A stretch of DNA of 64,000 nucleotides from assembly GCF_037081715.1 (NCBI RefSeq), contig NZ_JAZDDH010000001.1, forward strand, positions 1,116,001 to 1,180,000, written 5' to 3'. Below are positions 15,308-25,188 of the stretch, piece by piece. The stretch's first letter is position 1. Each line of letters begins with the position of its first letter. The translations under genes and the position numbers were made by a program. The stretch is from Halalkalicoccus sp. CG83. GTDB taxonomy: Archaea > Halobacteriota > Halobacteria > Halobacteriales > Halalkalicoccaceae. The notes under the pieces are model-generated. The model saw only the letters and a program-made list of their open reading frames with translations, had not been told where the DNA came from and searched no databases.

Positions 15308-16144
15308 TTACTTCGGCCCACTGACGAACGTGAGTACCTCGGCGACGAAGCGTTCCGGCGCGGTGAGCATCGCCTCGTGTCCGTGTCCATCGAGGGTGAC
15401 GAGCCGGCTGTTCGGAAGTGCATCGTGGACCGCCATTGTCGCATCTCTCAAGAAGGGAGGACTCTCGCTTCCGGACAACAACAAGGTCCGCGTCGTCATC
15501 TCCGTGAATCGTGCAGCGTCGAACTCGTACTCGCCGATCGCCTGCACGCTGCGGGGCCAGACGTGGGCCGCGTCCACGAGGTCCTGCCAGTCCGGCGCCG
15601 AGCGTTGCGCGTCGATCTCCTCCGGCGTTGATTGGGCTATCTCTCGTAGAAACAGCACGAGGACCCGTTCGTTCTCGCCGTCGTCCAGCAGCCGCTTCAT
15701 TTCGGCGAGTACGTCCTCGTCGTAGAGTTCGTGGTCGCCGACCGGAATCGGGGGTTCGTACAGGACGAGTTCGTGTAGATCGTCGGTCCGCAGCGCCGCC
15801 TCCAGGGACAAGAGTGCCCCGGAGGAATGTCCGAGCAGCGTCACCGGCTCGTCGATCGACTCGACGACCGCGGCCACGTCCTCGAACTCCCGTTCCAGTT
15901 CGTACGCGGCGGCGTCATCGCCGCTCCCGCCGACGCCACGATAATCCATCGCGTACACCGTGTACCGTTCTGCGAACGTGGAACGGACGTCCGAGAGGTC
16001 CCAGAACCTGTGGTCACAGGCACCCCCGTGGACGAGGACGAGCGGTGGCCCGCTTCCCGTTCTCTCGAACGCGATCGCCGTGCCGTCAGCGGACGTGACC
16101 GTCTCTAGTTCCGTACTCGTGTCTGATGATCTCGTTTTGGCCAT
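15308..16144 (-). CDS. Alpha/beta hydrolase inserted between lyeJ and cruF
   Basis: 278 aa from the ATG at 16144; an in-frame ATG at 16183 would add 13 residues. It has the oxyanion HGGACDHRFW motif, the nucleophile Ser107 in GHSSG, an Asp in LLLSGSESP and a C-terminal GHGHEAM with the catalytic His. The substrate is unknown. It lies on the opposite strand to the carotenoid genes that flank it, splitting a gene trio that is normally contiguous, so it looks inserted. Its first 30 codons resemble the N-terminal leader of the MBL-fold gene near 24.0 kb. Confidence 0.88.
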   Translation of the reverse strand: MAKTRSSDTSTELETVTSADGTAIAFERTGSGPPLVLVHGGACDHRFWDLSDVRSTFAERYTVYAMDYRGVGGSGDDAAAYELEREFEDVAAVVESIDEPVTLLGHSSGALLSLEAALRTDDLHELVLYEPPIPVGDHELYDEDVLAEMKRLLDDGENERVLVLFLREIAQSTPEEIDAQRSAPDWQDLVDAAHVWPRSVQAIGEYEFDAARFTEMTTRTLLLSGSESPPFLRDATMAVHDALPNSRLVTLDGHGHEAMLTAPERFVAEVLTFVSGPK

Positions 16145-19823: not shown

Positions 19824-21107
19824 TCACTCCTCGAGCAGGCCGTCGGCGAGCAGGGGGACGAACGTGCCGATGTCGGTCACCATGCCGATCGCCTGGGCGC
19901 TACCTCGGTCGAGTAGCTGGGTGACCGTCGCGGGGTTGATGTCGACGCAGACCACCCGCGTCGTCGAGGGTAGACAGTTCCCGACGGCGACGGAGTGGAG
20001 CAGCGTCGCGAGCATCAACACGAGGTCGGCGTCGCGGACCTGTTCGCGGATGGCGTTCTGGGCCTCGACGGAGTCGGTGATCGTGTCCGGAAGCGGCCCG
20101 TCGTCGCGGATCGACCCGGCGAGCACGTAGGGGACGTCGTTCTCGACGCACTCGTACATGATCCCGTCGTCGACGATTCCCTCCTCGACGGCGGCCTCGA
20201 TCCCGCCGGCGCGGATGATCTCACTGATCGTGTAGATGTGGTGTTTGTGGCCCTTTCGCGGGTGTTTCATCGTCTCGACCTCCATCCCCAGCGAGGTGCC
20301 GTAGAGGTCACGCTCGAGGTCGTGGACCGCGAAGCCGTTGCCCGCGCTGATCGCGTCTATGTACCCCTCACGCACCAGCCGGGCGAGGTCGTTTCTGGCC
20401 CCCGAGTGGATCACCGCTGGACCGGGGACGCAGACCACCTTTCCGCCCCGTGACTTGGTCTCCTCGATCGCGTCGGCGACGTTCCCGATCTGGGTCACCG
20501 AGGGGCGCTCGCTACTGATGCCACCCTGCATGAACCCGAACGAGCCCTCGCTGCTTCGCGGGCGTTCGGGCGGGTGGACCCGGATGCCGGCCTCGCCGAC
20601 CACGACGCGATCGCCCTTTTCGATGGCGTTGAGCGTCTTCGTGTACGCGCGTGGCCCGTTGGCGCCGTCTCGATCCCCGGCCTCGACCTCCTCCGACGGG
20701 CGACGGTCGTCCGTGCGATCCGGCTCGACGATCACCGCACAGTCCATCTCGATGTGGTCGACCGACAGCCACTCGCCCTGATAGCGGATCTCGGTCGGGT
20801 GGTTGGTCGTCGAGTAGAACCCCGCGGGGACGACCTTGTCGTCGGGTGCGGGCTCGACCTGTGCGTCGATCGGGTCCTGTAGGGTCGCGCCGTTCTGATT
20901 GAGCTGATGGATGATCTCGCCGAGCGTCTCCTCCGATTCGGCGGAGACGCGCATCCGCGCGTAGGACTCCTCGTGTCGTCGCGTCCCGACGTCGAACTTC
21001 TCGACCGAGAACCAGCCGTCCATGTCCATGATGATGCCCATACACTGGCCCATCATCCCCGAGTCGATGATGTGGCCCTCGAGCTCGACGATCCGCGAGT
21101 AGCTCAT
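19824..21107 (-). CDS. Archaeal ornithine cyclodeaminase-type / LOR-SDH bifunctional domain protein (TIGR00300)
   Basis: 427 aa from the ATG at 21107. It opens with the family hallmark SRIVELEGHIIDSGMMG, has the N-terminal LOR/SDH region with FYSTTNHPTEIRY, and a C-terminal Rossmann-like part with PGPAVIHSGARNDLARL, DISAGNGFAVHDLE-like and KGHKHHIYTISEIIRAGG motifs. Members of this family include archaeal ornithine cyclodeaminase, which converts ornithine to proline with release of ammonia. An ATG 27 nt upstream (21134) is less likely because homologues begin at M-x-Y-S-R. The family is firm; the reaction is inferred. Confidence 0.88.
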   Translation of the reverse strand: MSYSRIVELEGHIIDSGMMGQCMGIIMDMDGWFSVEKFDVGTRRHEESYARMRVSAESEETLGEIIHQLNQNGATLQDPIDAQVEPAPDDKVVPAGFYSTTNHPTEIRYQGEWLSVDHIEMDCAVIVEPDRTDDRRPSEEVEAGDRDGANGPRAYTKTLNAIEKGDRVVVGEAGIRVHPPERPRSSEGSFGFMQGGISSERPSVTQIGNVADAIEETKSRGGKVVCVPGPAVIHSGARNDLARLVREGYIDAISAGNGFAVHDLERDLYGTSLGMEVETMKHPRKGHKHHIYTISEIIRAGGIEAAVEEGIVDDGIMYECVENDVPYVLAGSIRDDGPLPDTITDSVEAQNAIREQVRDADLVLMLATLLHSVAVGNCLPSTTRVVCVDINPATVTQLLDRGSAQAIGMVTDIGTFVPLLADGLLEE

Positions 21108-21690
21108 ACGCGGACCATCGAGGGCCCCCGTCAAATCCCCTGCGAACCGCTTCTCGCCCTTCGTTCATAGTGTGTTCGTGATCGGCGACGTTTCAGTAAG
21201 CACGAATTCGTTCGAGGGACGTCTCGGCGTTCTACGTACCGCTTCGCGGCCGTTGACCCGTTTTTCGTTCACAGAACCACGTTCGGACACCGCGTTTCCG
21301 ATGCGTTCGTCCCAGCGTGTTCCACACTTGCCAGCACGTCGGACCGCCCTACTCTGGTCGACCTGTCCGGTTGCTTCCCTAACGGAATCGAGCCCGTTTT
21401 GGAGTCGAGAGGGCCTCGAACTGTCGAAACTCGGGTACGTTCGTACCTGGTGCGTTGCACGAGGCTCGACATCGATGAACTCCTGTTTTCGTCGGGTTCG
21501 ACCGGGAGGAGTCCGACCGGCTCGAGGCATATCTGTCAGTCGATCACGCTCGTGGACTGACTCGAAGGTCGTACTGACGTCCTCCGCGGTCGAGAGAAGT
21601 GACGTGCTGAATAGCGAGCGTGTGTTCGTCGGAGTCGGACGACCGGGACGGAGGTACTACCCCTTTATCCCTCCTCGCCGTAGTAGCCGT
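21108..21690. other. 583-nt intergenic region, no supported gene
   Basis: Frames are open on both strands here, but the predicted peptides are Arg/Ser/Thr-rich without the acidic bias of real genes in this genome, and I recognise no motif. The right end carries CTTTATCC at 21663-21670, about 28 nt ahead of the bat-type regulator, a likely TATA box. Confidence 0.4.
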
Positions 21691-22323
21691 ATGTTAGTCG
21701 TTGAGTTCCGGGCGGACTCGCCAATCCTTCGAGACGCCCTCGATCACGCCCCCGAAACGATCGTCACCCACGAGGAGCAATACCACACCGCCGAGGGTAT
21801 CAACTACCTGTTTTGGGCGGAGGGGGGCGATCTTGCAGCCTTCGAGGACGGACTGGCCGCCGACCCCACCGTGACGAACGTGTCCCAACTCGCTGAAACG
21901 CTGAGCCGCCGCATGTATCGAGCGACCTTTACTGACTACGGAGAAAGCGTCGCCACCTTTCCGTCGTGGAGCGGGTTGGACATCAGCCTCCTTGATTCGA
22001 CGATCTCGCATGAGGGCTGGAACGCCCGAATGCGCATGCCCGATCGAGAGACGCTCTATCGGTACCGCGACGTGTGTGAGGAGAACGACCTTCACTTTCA
22101 CCTCACATCGATCTACGAGGAGAAGGAAGCCACCAGTAAGGCGGAAGCCCAGCTTACGACTGTCCAGCGAGAAGCACTGACCACCGCACGTGAGCTCGGT
22201 TACTACGAGATTCCTCGGCGGGCGACGTTGGCAGACGTCGCGGACCGCTTGGGAATCTCCTCGCAGGCACTCTCGGAACGACTCCGTCGAGGGACCGCTA
22301 CCCTCATCGATACGGCCCTGTAA
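21691..22323 (+). CDS. Bat-type helix-turn-helix regulator (bacterio-opsin activator HTH_10 domain)
   Basis: 210 aa. The C-terminus carries the HTH_10 signature: LTTVQREALTTARELGYYEIPRRATLADVADRLGISSQALSERLRRG. The N-terminal 150 residues are the variable sensor half seen in small haloarchaeal Bat-like proteins. The ATG at 21691 follows a TATA-like box; the frame is open further upstream but that part is basic and not protein-like. Target genes are unknown. A second regulator of the same type is at 41.2 kb. Confidence 0.88.
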   Translation: MLVVEFRADSPILRDALDHAPETIVTHEEQYHTAEGINYLFWAEGGDLAAFEDGLAADPTVTNVSQLAETLSRRMYRATFTDYGESVATFPSWSGLDISLLDSTISHEGWNARMRMPDRETLYRYRDVCEENDLHFHLTSIYEEKEATSKAEAQLTTVQREALTTARELGYYEIPRRATLADVADRLGISSQALSERLRRGTATLIDTAL

Positions 22324-22476
22324 ACGACGCTTACGTAAACACTGGAATATTCATGGAGTGAGTGAAAGTGGACGGACCACGAACTCGTAACCGGATACTC
22401 GGGGAGAGCACTGGCGTGTACCGTTATGGCTCCGCCGGTATCCAGCCTCTGACGGTGATCGATACACGACCGGGCG

Positions 22477-22593
22477 ATGGATGAGCTCCTTTCCCGGTTT
22501 TTCGCCTCGCTAAGTCACTGGCGCGTACCGTTCACTTTCGACTTCTTGGAACGGTTCCGTCGGGCGGATGAAGAACGTGAACGCGACGCCTGA
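22477..22593 (+). CDS. 38-residue ORF in the decayed region
   Basis: MDELLSRFFASLSHWRVPF then FDFLERFRRADEERERDA. The peptide is amphipathic, with an acidic/basic helical tail, and looks more protein-like than the surrounding frames. It overlaps the following fragment by 26 nt in another frame. No family is recognised, so it may be a remnant or a real miniprotein. Confidence 0.25.
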   Translation: MDELLSRFFASLSHWRVPFTFDFLERFRRADEERERDA

Positions 22594-22762
22594 TCACACG
22601 TCGCCCATCGACTCGCCGACCGTCCGTGTAGGATCGCCGAGCGACGACTTCGACGGCGTAGAAGGGCGTCTCAAAGCGCTCGAACGCGGCGAAGACGGGC
22701 AGATCACTCAGTTCGTCCAACACACGAACACGTACCTCTGGCGGGACGTCATCGGCGTCTAA
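22568..22762 (+). pseudogene. Truncated HVO_A0114-type DNA-binding protein (likely antitoxin remnant)
   Basis: 64 codons. The stretch PTVRVGSPSDDFDGVEGRL then KALERGED matches the N-terminal pattern of HVO_A0114-family winged-helix proteins, where a TVRVG...DDFDGV segment precedes a [DR]-A-L-[DE]-x-GE motif. Those proteins are about 120-130 aa and continue with an HTH; here the frame runs into unrelated sequence (QHTNTYLWRDVIGV) and stops, so the DNA-binding part is missing. In other haloarchaea such proteins pair with DUF6516-type toxins; I see no partner here. Recognition is by eye and moderate. Confidence 0.4.
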
Positions 22763-23046
22763 GGCTCGGTCCGATAGCGACACGGTACCTCACCGTTGCT
22801 TCGAACGGGTCTAACACGCAAATTCTCGGCCGGCTTCCATGCGAGATACGCACTGTATATCCTGCAGAGACTCAACGACATAACCAACTATTGATGTAAA
22901 TAGCGTGGAAGATACAGCGGATTCGAACACCCGATTTCTAATACATAGTGGGAGATTCTTGATATCCGGTAACGACATACCGCGTCGTTCCTCCAAATCT
23001 GATATGGGCTTGTGGGCGAGCAAATCTCCTGTTGAGAGCGCGGTCA
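22763..23046. other. Decayed, lower-GC intergenic stretch
   Basis: This stretch is AT-richer than the genome average and has no convincing gene. A 78-codon minus-strand frame (22811-23047) starts at a TAATG junction with the MBL stop, but its composition is not haloarchaeal and no motif is visible. Confidence 0.35.
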
Positions 23047-24018
23047 TTAATCAGCGGGAGTATGAACCTCCCCGTGATCTCCCTCCGATGGTTGAACGTA
23101 TTCCACGGGAGAATAAAGCTCCCCGAGATCTCCCTCCCATGGTTGAACATGTCCAGGCAGCAGGGTCATTTGGCCGAGAGCGGCCAATTTTCGTGCGGAG
23201 ACCTGTTGTTGCCCTTTATCGAAGTTAAACATGTTCCCTCCCCGCACGGGCTCGGGATCCACGGCTTTCCCACTCATGATATCAAACGTTAGCAGCGCGT
23301 CGCCAGCGAAGAGGATTCGAGAATCCGGCAACCAGAACGAACAGTGCCCCTTCCTGTGTCCAGGTGTATGGATCACTTCAGGCTGACCGGGGACGTCCAA
23401 TACCTGACCGTCAGTGAATGTGTTCACCTCAGCAATCGGTTCCTCGTCGCCCATACCAGCCTGCATCAGAGCGCGGATAAATCGCGCAAAAGCGGGTCGC
23501 CACATGAGGAGGAAGAATCCTAGAGGCGGCTTGCCTAGGCCTTCCACAGCTGCCTCGTACCCATCTTCGTGGATCCAAACGGGGATCCCCTCCTTCCGAA
23601 GCGGTTCAGCCAGCCCTATATGATCCGGATCTATGTGCGTTAGAATCAGCGCTTTAATGTCGGTTATCTCGGCCCCGATTCGTTCGAGGCCGGACTGCAG
23701 CAGTTCCATCTGAGCAGGTAATCCCGCATCGACCAGTGTCAGTCCATCATCGTCCTCGATGAGGTACATATTGGTCATGGCTGAGCAGAGCTGGTAGACA
23801 CCATCGGCCACTTCCGTGGCCACCCGCTCTTCTCTGAGATGGGATTCTATGTTCCAGGGGATTCTCACGACTCGTTCACCTCCTCCCCGGGGCGATTGAT
23901 GCCATCGATTCCGGACGAATTCGCCGCTCTCGGCTCGTTCGAATGCAATTGGCGTCCCATCGGCTGGTGTGACTGGGCCCATTTCCCTGTCTGTGGCTGC
24001 TGTAGTTACTTTTGGCAT
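23047..24018 (-). CDS. MBL-fold metallo-hydrolase with chimeric N-terminus and repeated C-terminus
   Basis: 323 aa. The metallo-beta-lactamase fold is clear from about residue 65: VADGVYQLCSAMTNMYLIEDDDGLTLVDAG, LTHIDPDHIGLA, HTPGHRKGHCSF, LFAGDALLTFD and LLPGHVQPW. The metal loop reads H-x-D-x-D-H where the commonest form is H-x-H-x-D-H. The first 30 residues (VTPADGTPIAFERAESG) are not MBL sequence but match the N-terminus of an alpha/beta hydrolase (compare VTSADGTAIAFERTGSG in the gene at 15.3-16.1 kb), so the gene looks like a fusion with a hydrolase stub. The last 34 residues are two 17-aa repeats. The substrate is unknown. Confidence 0.7.
   Translation of the reverse strand: MPKVTTAATDREMGPVTPADGTPIAFERAESGEFVRNRWHQSPRGGGERVVRIPWNIESHLREERVATEVADGVYQLCSAMTNMYLIEDDDGLTLVDAGLPAQMELLQSGLERIGAEITDIKALILTHIDPDHIGLAEPLRKEGIPVWIHEDGYEAAVEGLGKPPLGFFLLMWRPAFARFIRALMQAGMGDEEPIAEVNTFTDGQVLDVPGQPEVIHTPGHRKGHCSFWLPDSRILFAGDALLTFDIMSGKAVDPEPVRGGNMFNFDKGQQQVSARKLAALGQMTLLPGHVQPWEGDLGELYSPVEYVQPSEGDHGEVHTPAD
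23056..23157 (-). repeat. Tandem duplication, two 51-nt units
   Basis: Units 23056-23106 and 23107-23157 are clearly similar, sharing core TCTCCCTCC-ATGGTTGAAC (one mismatch in the middle). They encode the last two 17-aa units of the MBL-fold protein, HVQPWEGDLGELYSPVE and YVQPSEGDHGEVHTPAD. The unit is in frame, so the protein was extended rather than broken. Confidence 0.75.
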
Positions 24019-24474
24019 GGCTGGTTTCCGTTATCGGGAGAGTCCGTCGGCACAGTACACGTTGCCTGCCCGCCGAACCGAAGAACGCTCATCTCTCATA
24101 GGTCATGTACCATGTTAACGTTTCGTATTTCACGGGTGATCAGGCTGTTTCCGACAAGCGACGTTGCAATGAGCGAGTTGATGCTGATCTGTTCGAGTCA
24201 AATTTGCGGAATACGCGCCCCAGCCGCTGAGGAGTACAACGTGGCCGATGATATCACAACAGCGATGCCGATCACCGCGACCGATGAACGAGCACGGTTC
24301 GTGTCCGTGACGAGTAGACCTGATCTACCGTCTCGACTGTTCTACTGGTATACCACGAGGCTAGCAGGGCCTTCTCGGCGTAATCGTGGGCGTTACGGGC
24401 GAGAAGCCCGTGCGCTCCTGGTGATACCGGCTGGAACGCCGGAGCTTATGTCCCGCCGGCCCCTCTCTCAAATC
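24019..24474. other. 456-nt region without a supported gene, with an imperfect hairpin
   Basis: The frame of the following SRAP gene stays open upstream, but the peptide is not protein-like and the catalytic Cys2 fixes the start downstream. An imperfect inverted repeat spans about 24366-24411 (GGGCCTTCTCGGCGT against ACGGGCGAGAAGCCC), with an inner 6-bp stem ACGGGC/GCCCGT. It may be a leader hairpin or remnant. Confidence 0.35.
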
Positions 24475-25188
24475 ATGTGCGGACGCTACGGCATCTACAC
24501 GCCGCCCGACGAGCTCGGCGCGCGGTTCGCCGCGACCTCCATCGATCTGGAGCCGACGTACAACGCCGCTCCGCGGGAGCGGTTGCCGGTGATCCGTGAC
24601 GATGCCGACGACGCGATCACGACCGCTCGCTGGGGACTCGTCCCCGAATGGGCCGACGACGACTCGACGGAGTTCATCAACGCCCGCGCCGAGACCCTCG
24701 CGGAGAAGCCCAGTTTTCGCGACGCCTACGCGCGATCCGCAGAGCGGGACAGCGTGCCCTCGGCGGGCCGGTGTCTGGTGCTCGCGGACGGCTTCTACGA
24801 GTGGGTCGAGGAAGGGGACGGTCGAAAACAGCCCTACTACGTGACCCGCCGCGACGACGAGCCCTTCGCGATGGCGGGCCTCTGGAGTCGGTGGACGCCG
24901 ACGGTCGAGCAGACCGACCTCTCCGCGTTCGGCGCCGGCGAGCCCGCCGCTCCCGACCCCGTGGAGACGTTCGCGATCGTCACCACCGAGCCCAACGAAG
25001 TAGTCGAGGAGCTCCACCACCGGATGGCGGCGATCCTTCCGGGAGAGACCGAACGCGAGTGGCTCGCGGATGCCGAGGTGCCCGCGCCGATCGACGGCGA
25101 TGAACTGCGTGCCTATCCGGTCTCGACGAGGGTGAACAGCCCCGCGAACGACGGCCCCGAGCTCGTCGAGGAGGTGGCCCATGCCTGA
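24475..25188 (+). CDS. SRAP / HMCES (YedK) family abasic-site protein
   Basis: 237 aa. The protein must start Met-Cys because Cys2, exposed after Met removal, forms the covalent link to abasic DNA; MCGRYGIYTPP is intact. Other catalytic features are present: YNAAPRE, RWGLVPEWA, INARAET, DGFYEW and LHHRMAAIL with the active-site His. It shields abasic sites in single-stranded DNA. It overlaps the next gene by 8 nt, forming a likely operon with the HAD and FAH proteins. Confidence 0.94.
   Translation: MCGRYGIYTPPDELGARFAATSIDLEPTYNAAPRERLPVIRDDADDAITTARWGLVPEWADDDSTEFINARAETLAEKPSFRDAYARSAERDSVPSAGRCLVLADGFYEWVEEGDGRKQPYYVTRRDDEPFAMAGLWSRWTPTVEQTDLSAFGAGEPAAPDPVETFAIVTTEPNEVVEELHHRMAAILPGETEREWLADAEVPAPIDGDELRAYPVSTRVNSPANDGPELVEEVAHA

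Follow-up and report, generated by a model that had tools for sequence, protein, structure and literature searches.

A metallo-beta-lactamase-fold gene of Halalkalicoccus sp. CG83 carries the beginning of an alpha/beta hydrolase gene at its 5' end

Chimeric genes can arise by deletion between neighbouring genes. For enzymes of the metallo-beta-lactamase (MBL) fold the textbook metal motif is HxHxDH, and variant motifs occur in the superfamily. How closely spaced genes are translated has been studied in the haloarchaeon Haloferax volcanii, where nine of nine tested pairs with overlaps or gaps of at most 10 nt were strictly coupled and internal Shine-Dalgarno (SD) motifs started no translation alone (PMC6728339). 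Reinitiation was down to 40–60% at 13/14 nt (one pair: 60% reduction) and absent or near zero at 22–23 nt in a second study (PMC10666635). The extended SD motif given for H. volcanii, GGAGGUGA, contains UGA, and the same paper describes SD motifs within the 5'-UTR as without effect (PMC3986360). Among the titles listed by our literature searches, which were not aimed at the arrangement by name, none concerned a hydrolase–MBL arrangement of the kind described here.

The gene lies in a 64,000-nucleotide stretch (the window; G000:C1:1116001-1180000) of a genome in six contigs. Its open reading frame (ORF), at 24018..23047 on the minus strand, encodes 323 aa and begins MPKVTTAATDREMGPVTPADGTPIAFERAESG. 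The original prediction held that the first 30 codons are not MBL sequence and represent the start of a hydrolase, and both statements were borne out. The Pfam domain Lactamase_B (PF00753; 113.6 bits against a curated cut-off of 22.7) spans only residues 81–290, and codons 1–32 (24018-23923) can be aligned gap-free with a set of haloarchaeal alpha/beta hydrolases at their N-terminus. The closest of these, which we call H1, is a paralogue in the same genome, 0.8 Mb from the window (C1:1,947,302; L030:3303-4136). These 32 codons with their ATG (23923..24018, minus strand) form an H1-type hydrolase stub, homologous to the N-termini of PF12697 alpha/beta hydrolases (E 1e-6 against H1). H1 itself matches PF12697, and its domain starts at residue 33–35; Pfam detected no hydrolase domain in the ORF, which keeps just the 32 codons and lacks the catalytic core of the fold. 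The stub is followed by 18 junction codons and then by the MBL's own start region. The resulting 50-residue leader contains no recognisable domain. A structure prediction was of no use (mean pLDDT 36.7). Five aligned relatives meet the window protein at residue 51/52; ahead of this point two of them, given from their own start, have nothing, and three have a different 16-residue leader.

The leader had been thought to match, also at the DNA level, the hydrolase gene at 15.3–16.1 kb (15308..16144, minus strand). This gene is indeed a related paralogue, but it is not the closest one. We scored the leader with BLOSUM62 against 29 collected hydrolase sequences, two of which are repeats, and ran 1000 shuffled leaders, each against 10 of the 29. 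The top score was 96, with H1, compared with 76 for the 15.3 kb gene and 54 for the best shuffle. Codons 1–32 are identical to H1 at 21/32 amino acids and 70/96 nucleotides and to the 15.3 kb gene at 17/32 and 58/96; tblastn over the 32 codons gave E values of 1e-6 and 2e-4, respectively. The DNA match to 16040-16144 turned out to be weak: with +2/−3 scoring it reached 21, below the nine best random window segments (28–33), and +1/−1 scoring gave 23, where shuffles reached at most 17. H1, by contrast, matches strongly at the DNA level (45 under +1/−1 scoring, with shuffles again no higher than 17). The mismatches between stub and H1 fall on codon positions 1/2/3 in the ratio 6/5/15, as expected of formerly coding sequence. 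We rejected the 15.3 kb hydrolase as donor in view of the closer relationship of H1, whose 5' flank is also shared. The H1-type group is expanded in this genome, which has H1 and H2 in tandem (L030:3303-5017) plus the 15.3 kb gene; the contigs of another genome, G009, contain eight matches to the group.

Homology between stub and H1 extends 117 nt 5' of the ATG (24019..24135, minus strand). In blastn, window positions 24135-23924 aligned with L030 3187-3397 over 212 nt at 71% identity (E 7e-34), and the 120-nt flank scored 47 against the H1 flank with a shuffle maximum of 18; neither the 15.3 kb gene nor H2, which adjoins H1, has a flank that it matched above shuffles. The segment 24019..24135 is a probable promoter region. 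Alignment of the hydrolase flanks revealed within it an element, GTTAWC-N25-GYGTTCTYCG (24079..24119, minus strand), about 60 nt 5' of the ATG. Exact copies number six in 146 genomes and none in a reversed control; the motif was written from five of these six, so the sole independent match is the copy in G009, which precedes a hydrolase. The window's own genome has only two exact copies, before the MBL stub and before H1. The element also precedes hydrolases in G022 (contig 54) and G037 as well as a small gene (L025:4387-3950, minus strand) that adjoins the MBL gene of G008. This small gene lies 3' of the MBL, starts MPKATAP and looks SnoaL-like by eye. The element marks a 5' region common to the H1-type hydrolase group. 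We also considered a regulon spanning the genome: with one or two mismatches allowed there are 26 copies (two in the reversed control), for which codon bias or further sites could be the cause.

The MBL and its leader are part of a 3.3-kb islet (21141..24435) that consists of an HTH_10 gene, the MBL and AT-richer flanks. At this site the gene at 19824-21134 and the SRAP gene flank a Na/Ca exchanger gene (PF01699) in five congeners (L099-L103); no match to the exchanger was found in window 21000-25000, nor in the short contig of a sixth congener. Other exchangers, 57% and 51% identical, are still encoded in the window's genome. The GC content of the islet is 55–61% in seven 500-nt bins; of the 23 other bins examined, 22 have at least 63%. 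Because the congeners have the exchanger and the GC content of the islet is lower, we conclude that the MBL unit is an acquired, species-specific islet and did not arise on the spot by a deletion among the neighbouring genes of the window. A further observation links the MBL to the neighbourhood of H1: the stub-MBL of genome G007 adjoins an aspartoacylase-like gene (PF24827), and an 85% relative of that gene adjoins H1 and H2 in the window's genome.

From its probable original start the MBL-fold hydrolase has 273 aa (23047..23868, minus strand) and matches PF00753 with 114.2 bits (E 9.9e-33). Queries from codon 52 gave 2zo4 as the best solved sequence by profile and reached the cut-off of none of the 25 NCBIfam models listed. 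We rejected the enzyme as a true beta-lactamase, with scores of 52.8 bits for class B3 and 24 for class B1 against NCBIfam equivalog cut-offs of 240 and 200. Its metal motif is THIDPDH (HxDxDH; 23620-23640, minus strand), and H-x-D-P-D-H is invariant in six open copies of the gene. The pairwise dN/dS ratios of these six copies from the original start (15 pairs) range from 0.08 to 0.31, indicating that the MBL is under purifying selection. As judged from sequence, the MBL is probably an active, constrained enzyme. The C-terminus (23050-23148, minus strand) has the appearance of an imperfect tandem duplication (VQPWEGDLGELYSPVEY / VQPSEGDHGEVHTPAD); a similar longer tail is present in G008, and the tail is short in G007, G239, Halomarina and G494.

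We collected eight close MBL loci: the window and those in G007, G008, G022, G239, G351, G494 and the Halomarina halobia plasmid NZ_CP119993.1. The first four come from 146 genomes, eight of which had any match at E 1e-20, G239 and G351 from 392 genomes (27 with any match at E 1e-25), and G494 from a search in which 2 of 170 genomes matched; searches of the family of G239 (1/125) and of a class-wide draw (4/391) returned known loci only. A further collection gave one close relative, on the Halomarina plasmid, and a distant one (23%); another collection and the viral contigs gave none. Matches were present in 59 plasmid records, with more than 60% identity only in the Halomarina copy; for some MBL queries, including this plasmid-record search, the query began at codon 52, one past the probable GTG start. 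The other matches of the 146- and 392-genome searches are 37–43% identical; in the tree, 13 of these cluster apart.

Recognisable hydrolase sequence stands ahead of the MBL in three of the eight loci, G022, the window and G007. G022, whose MBL is 66–70% identical, shows recognisable hydrolase coding sequence between positions −834 and −9, counted from the MBL start; the matches begin at codon 3 (of the 15.3 kb hydrolase) and end at codon 276 (of H1). This nearly full hydrolase is frameshifted, in three pieces in different frames, and its frame continues past the MBL start (ATGTGA), so that the 4-nt overlap is not intact; G022 is a draft genome, 78% complete, and both of its genes carry stops or frame changes. 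In G007 a 27-codon ORF, the first 14 residues of which match H1 at 10/14, precedes the MBL, and its TGA overlaps the MBL ATG (ATGA). G351 has a short leader ORF that ends 7 nt before the MBL start and is not recognisably hydrolase (best E 1.0; its tail 0.045). The remaining loci, G239, Halomarina, G494 and G008, have a 16-codon in-frame leader MATA… (L056:4636-4683(−), L085:4950-4997(+), L098:4923-4970(−), L025:5655-5702(−)), which we rejected as a hydrolase start as no match was better than E 0.33. We found no intact hydrolase–MBL pair, and a recognisable hydrolase body in one relative only, G022. A 633-aa open frame in G239 was considered as a full hydrolase–MBL fusion and rejected, as its upstream part overlaps a FAD-binding/berberine-like gene that is read in a different frame of that strand. 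Such an oxidoreductase gene lies near the MBL in both G239 and Halomarina (L056:4893-6290(−), L085:2051-3526(−)), and similar DNA is present near the MBL of G351 (L057); the orientations differ.

These loci bear on the possibility that the leader is an ancestral part of the MBL family, an outcome that we did not find among the MBL relatives. Four loci have a different, 16-codon leader, and the stub therefore does not belong ancestrally to the MBL. The search for MBL relatives without the leader was successful: in G007 and G351 stops separate the leader from the MBL start, and G103 and G135 (38–40% identical) have no such leader at the 5' end. The inner branches among the eight loci are mostly weak, and on the MBL DNA tree a bipartition of the loci by leader/tail type, tested after the first tree had been seen, was rejected (p-AU 0.013). 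The 5' ends were therefore probably exchanged or replaced more than once.

Comparison of the tail with the other loci also informed on the 18 junction codons (EFVRNRWHQSPRGGGERV; 23869..23922, minus strand). Their last 14 nt (23882-23869) match G022 at 12/14, G351 at 13/14 and G007 at 10/14 positions, compared with 3–6/14 in the four loci with the other leader, and the counterpart in G022 is hydrolase coding sequence from the 3' end of the gene. This tail is short and contains an SD-like motif that is possibly conserved for itself: GGAGGTGA (23876..23883, minus strand), an 8-nt match, ends 7 nt before the GTG at 23868. The preceding junction nucleotides, 23922-23883 (about 40), have no clear source. 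Codon 51 is this GTG (23868-23866), followed by RIPWNIESHL…; G007 and G351 have ATG there (MRIPWNIES). Between the leader and the MBL frame, these two loci have stops and no start codon, and hence their MBL must start at this place. The GTG at 23868 is the probable original start of the MBL. A +1-frame TGA overlaps it (GTGA; 23865..23868, minus strand) where G007 and G351 have ATGA, and this TGA is a probable relic of the hydrolase stop.

We infer that the ancestor was a pair of genes, an H1-type alpha/beta hydrolase and an MBL whose start lay at the very end of the hydrolase, and that the body of the hydrolase was probably lost by internal deletion. On the 5' side the deletion would have left the upstream region of the hydrolase, its ATG and 32 codons, and on the 3' side a short stretch with the last hydrolase codons, the SD-like motif and the stop overlapping the MBL start. 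The two hydrolase remnants would be mutually out of frame, yet the hydrolase ATG would have come to be in frame with the MBL, giving a single 323-codon ORF with a 50-residue extension, presumably transcribed from the old hydrolase promoter. The original prediction had likewise proposed that a deletion fused a hydrolase start to the MBL gene; in G022 hydrolase sequence runs directly into the MBL start, so that a deletion within such a pair would explain the fusion. Several points weigh against a deletion: G022 alone keeps a recognisable hydrolase body, the shared tail is short, the source of about 40 junction nucleotides is not clear, five of the eight loci have leaders without a recognisable hydrolase match, and the grouping by leader type conflicts with the MBL tree. 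As the main rival, recombination may have placed an H1-type promoter, start and first codons before an MBL without a hydrolase partner in this lineage. The leader types that deviate from the MBL tree fit such a capture, as does the 5' element before the unrelated gene beside the G008 MBL, which indicates that such pieces precede several genes. We nevertheless regard it as unlikely, because the tail is shared with the hydrolase end of G022 (12/14 nt) and its TGA overlaps the start, and because the same MBL adjoins a hydrolase body in G022 and a hydrolase stub in G007. That the leader resembles a hydrolase by chance is hardly credible: just 32 residues are involved, but their score of 96 far exceeds the best of 1000 shuffles, and the homology continues in DNA over 212 nt. 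An argument for selection from the reading frames of the stubs was discarded, since each of the three frames either stops at or close to the MBL start or continues into it, and the loci are few.

Given such a deletion, translation could begin at the hydrolase ATG, the new start proposed in the original prediction, yielding the fusion, or at the old GTG. On our analysis the hydrolase ATG is slightly more likely, because internal SD sites gave no de novo start in Haloferax; as the stop at the overlap lies outside the stub frame, a fusion from the hydrolase ATG would best fit the rules derived from Haloferax, a different genus. The leader might instead be a mere remnant; GTG 23868 would then be the sole start of the MBL, and the ATG in frame with it at 24018 would be accidental, though likely to be chosen by gene callers. 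We consider this a serious contender, somewhat short of an even chance; the estimate concerns translation and not origin, and does not compete with those for deletion and capture. The presence of GGAGGTGA 7 nt before the GTG argues for it, and G007 and G351, with their intervening stops, must start at the equivalent place. In addition, the last 19 leader codons including the GTG are basic (4 K/R, 2 D/E) and the MBL is acidic (42 D/E, 19 K/R); the basic junction residues look unselected. Against a start at the GTG alone stand the nine coupled H. volcanii pairs without de novo initiation at internal SD motifs (PMC6728339) and the ineffective SD motifs in the 5'-UTR (PMC3986360). The old start codon of G494 (L098), moreover, is CTG, and the ATG of the upstream 16-codon leader therefore seems to be needed there.

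A more general idea, which we offer tentatively and consider rather doubtful, is that coupled translation steers how genes in haloarchaeal operons die: as internal SD sites do not initiate alone, a lost upstream gene would have to leave behind a start codon that delivers ribosomes. If this were true, the different outcomes would be represented within this one MBL family, with the fusion in the window, the stump in G007, the leader ORF in G351 and the MATA leader. The TGA within the SD motif would then provide a stop near the start in the remaining frame, so that any deletion sparing the tail would work. A requirement to retain the upstream start would also help to account for the short leader ORFs of haloarchaea and for unusual N-terminal extensions of their proteins. 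More immediately, the window locus offers a readable example of a gene gaining a new front end, and the annotated MBL start calls for caution, as the 50 leader residues could be either a relic that is translated or not translated at all.

With the haloarchaeal coupled overlapping pairs (PMC6728339, PMC10666635) the locus shares an SD-like motif within the last part of the upstream frame and a stop and start that overlap by 4 nt (ATGA in G351 and G007, GTGA in the window). It is unlike them in that the upstream gene is reduced to its ends and its start reads into the MBL; the stop overlaps the downstream start in G007, and in the window, where it lies in the +1 frame, translation from the hydrolase ATG would not meet it. 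The MBL belongs with the PF00753 hydrolases by its family match and has THIDPDH where the textbook motif is HxHxDH. As in deletion chimeras, the start of one gene is joined in frame to a neighbour, but the addition is limited to a 50-codon leader and the MBL keeps its own start region. The locus is a well-documented chimeric gene in a family with several such 5' ends, and it is ordinary in kind.
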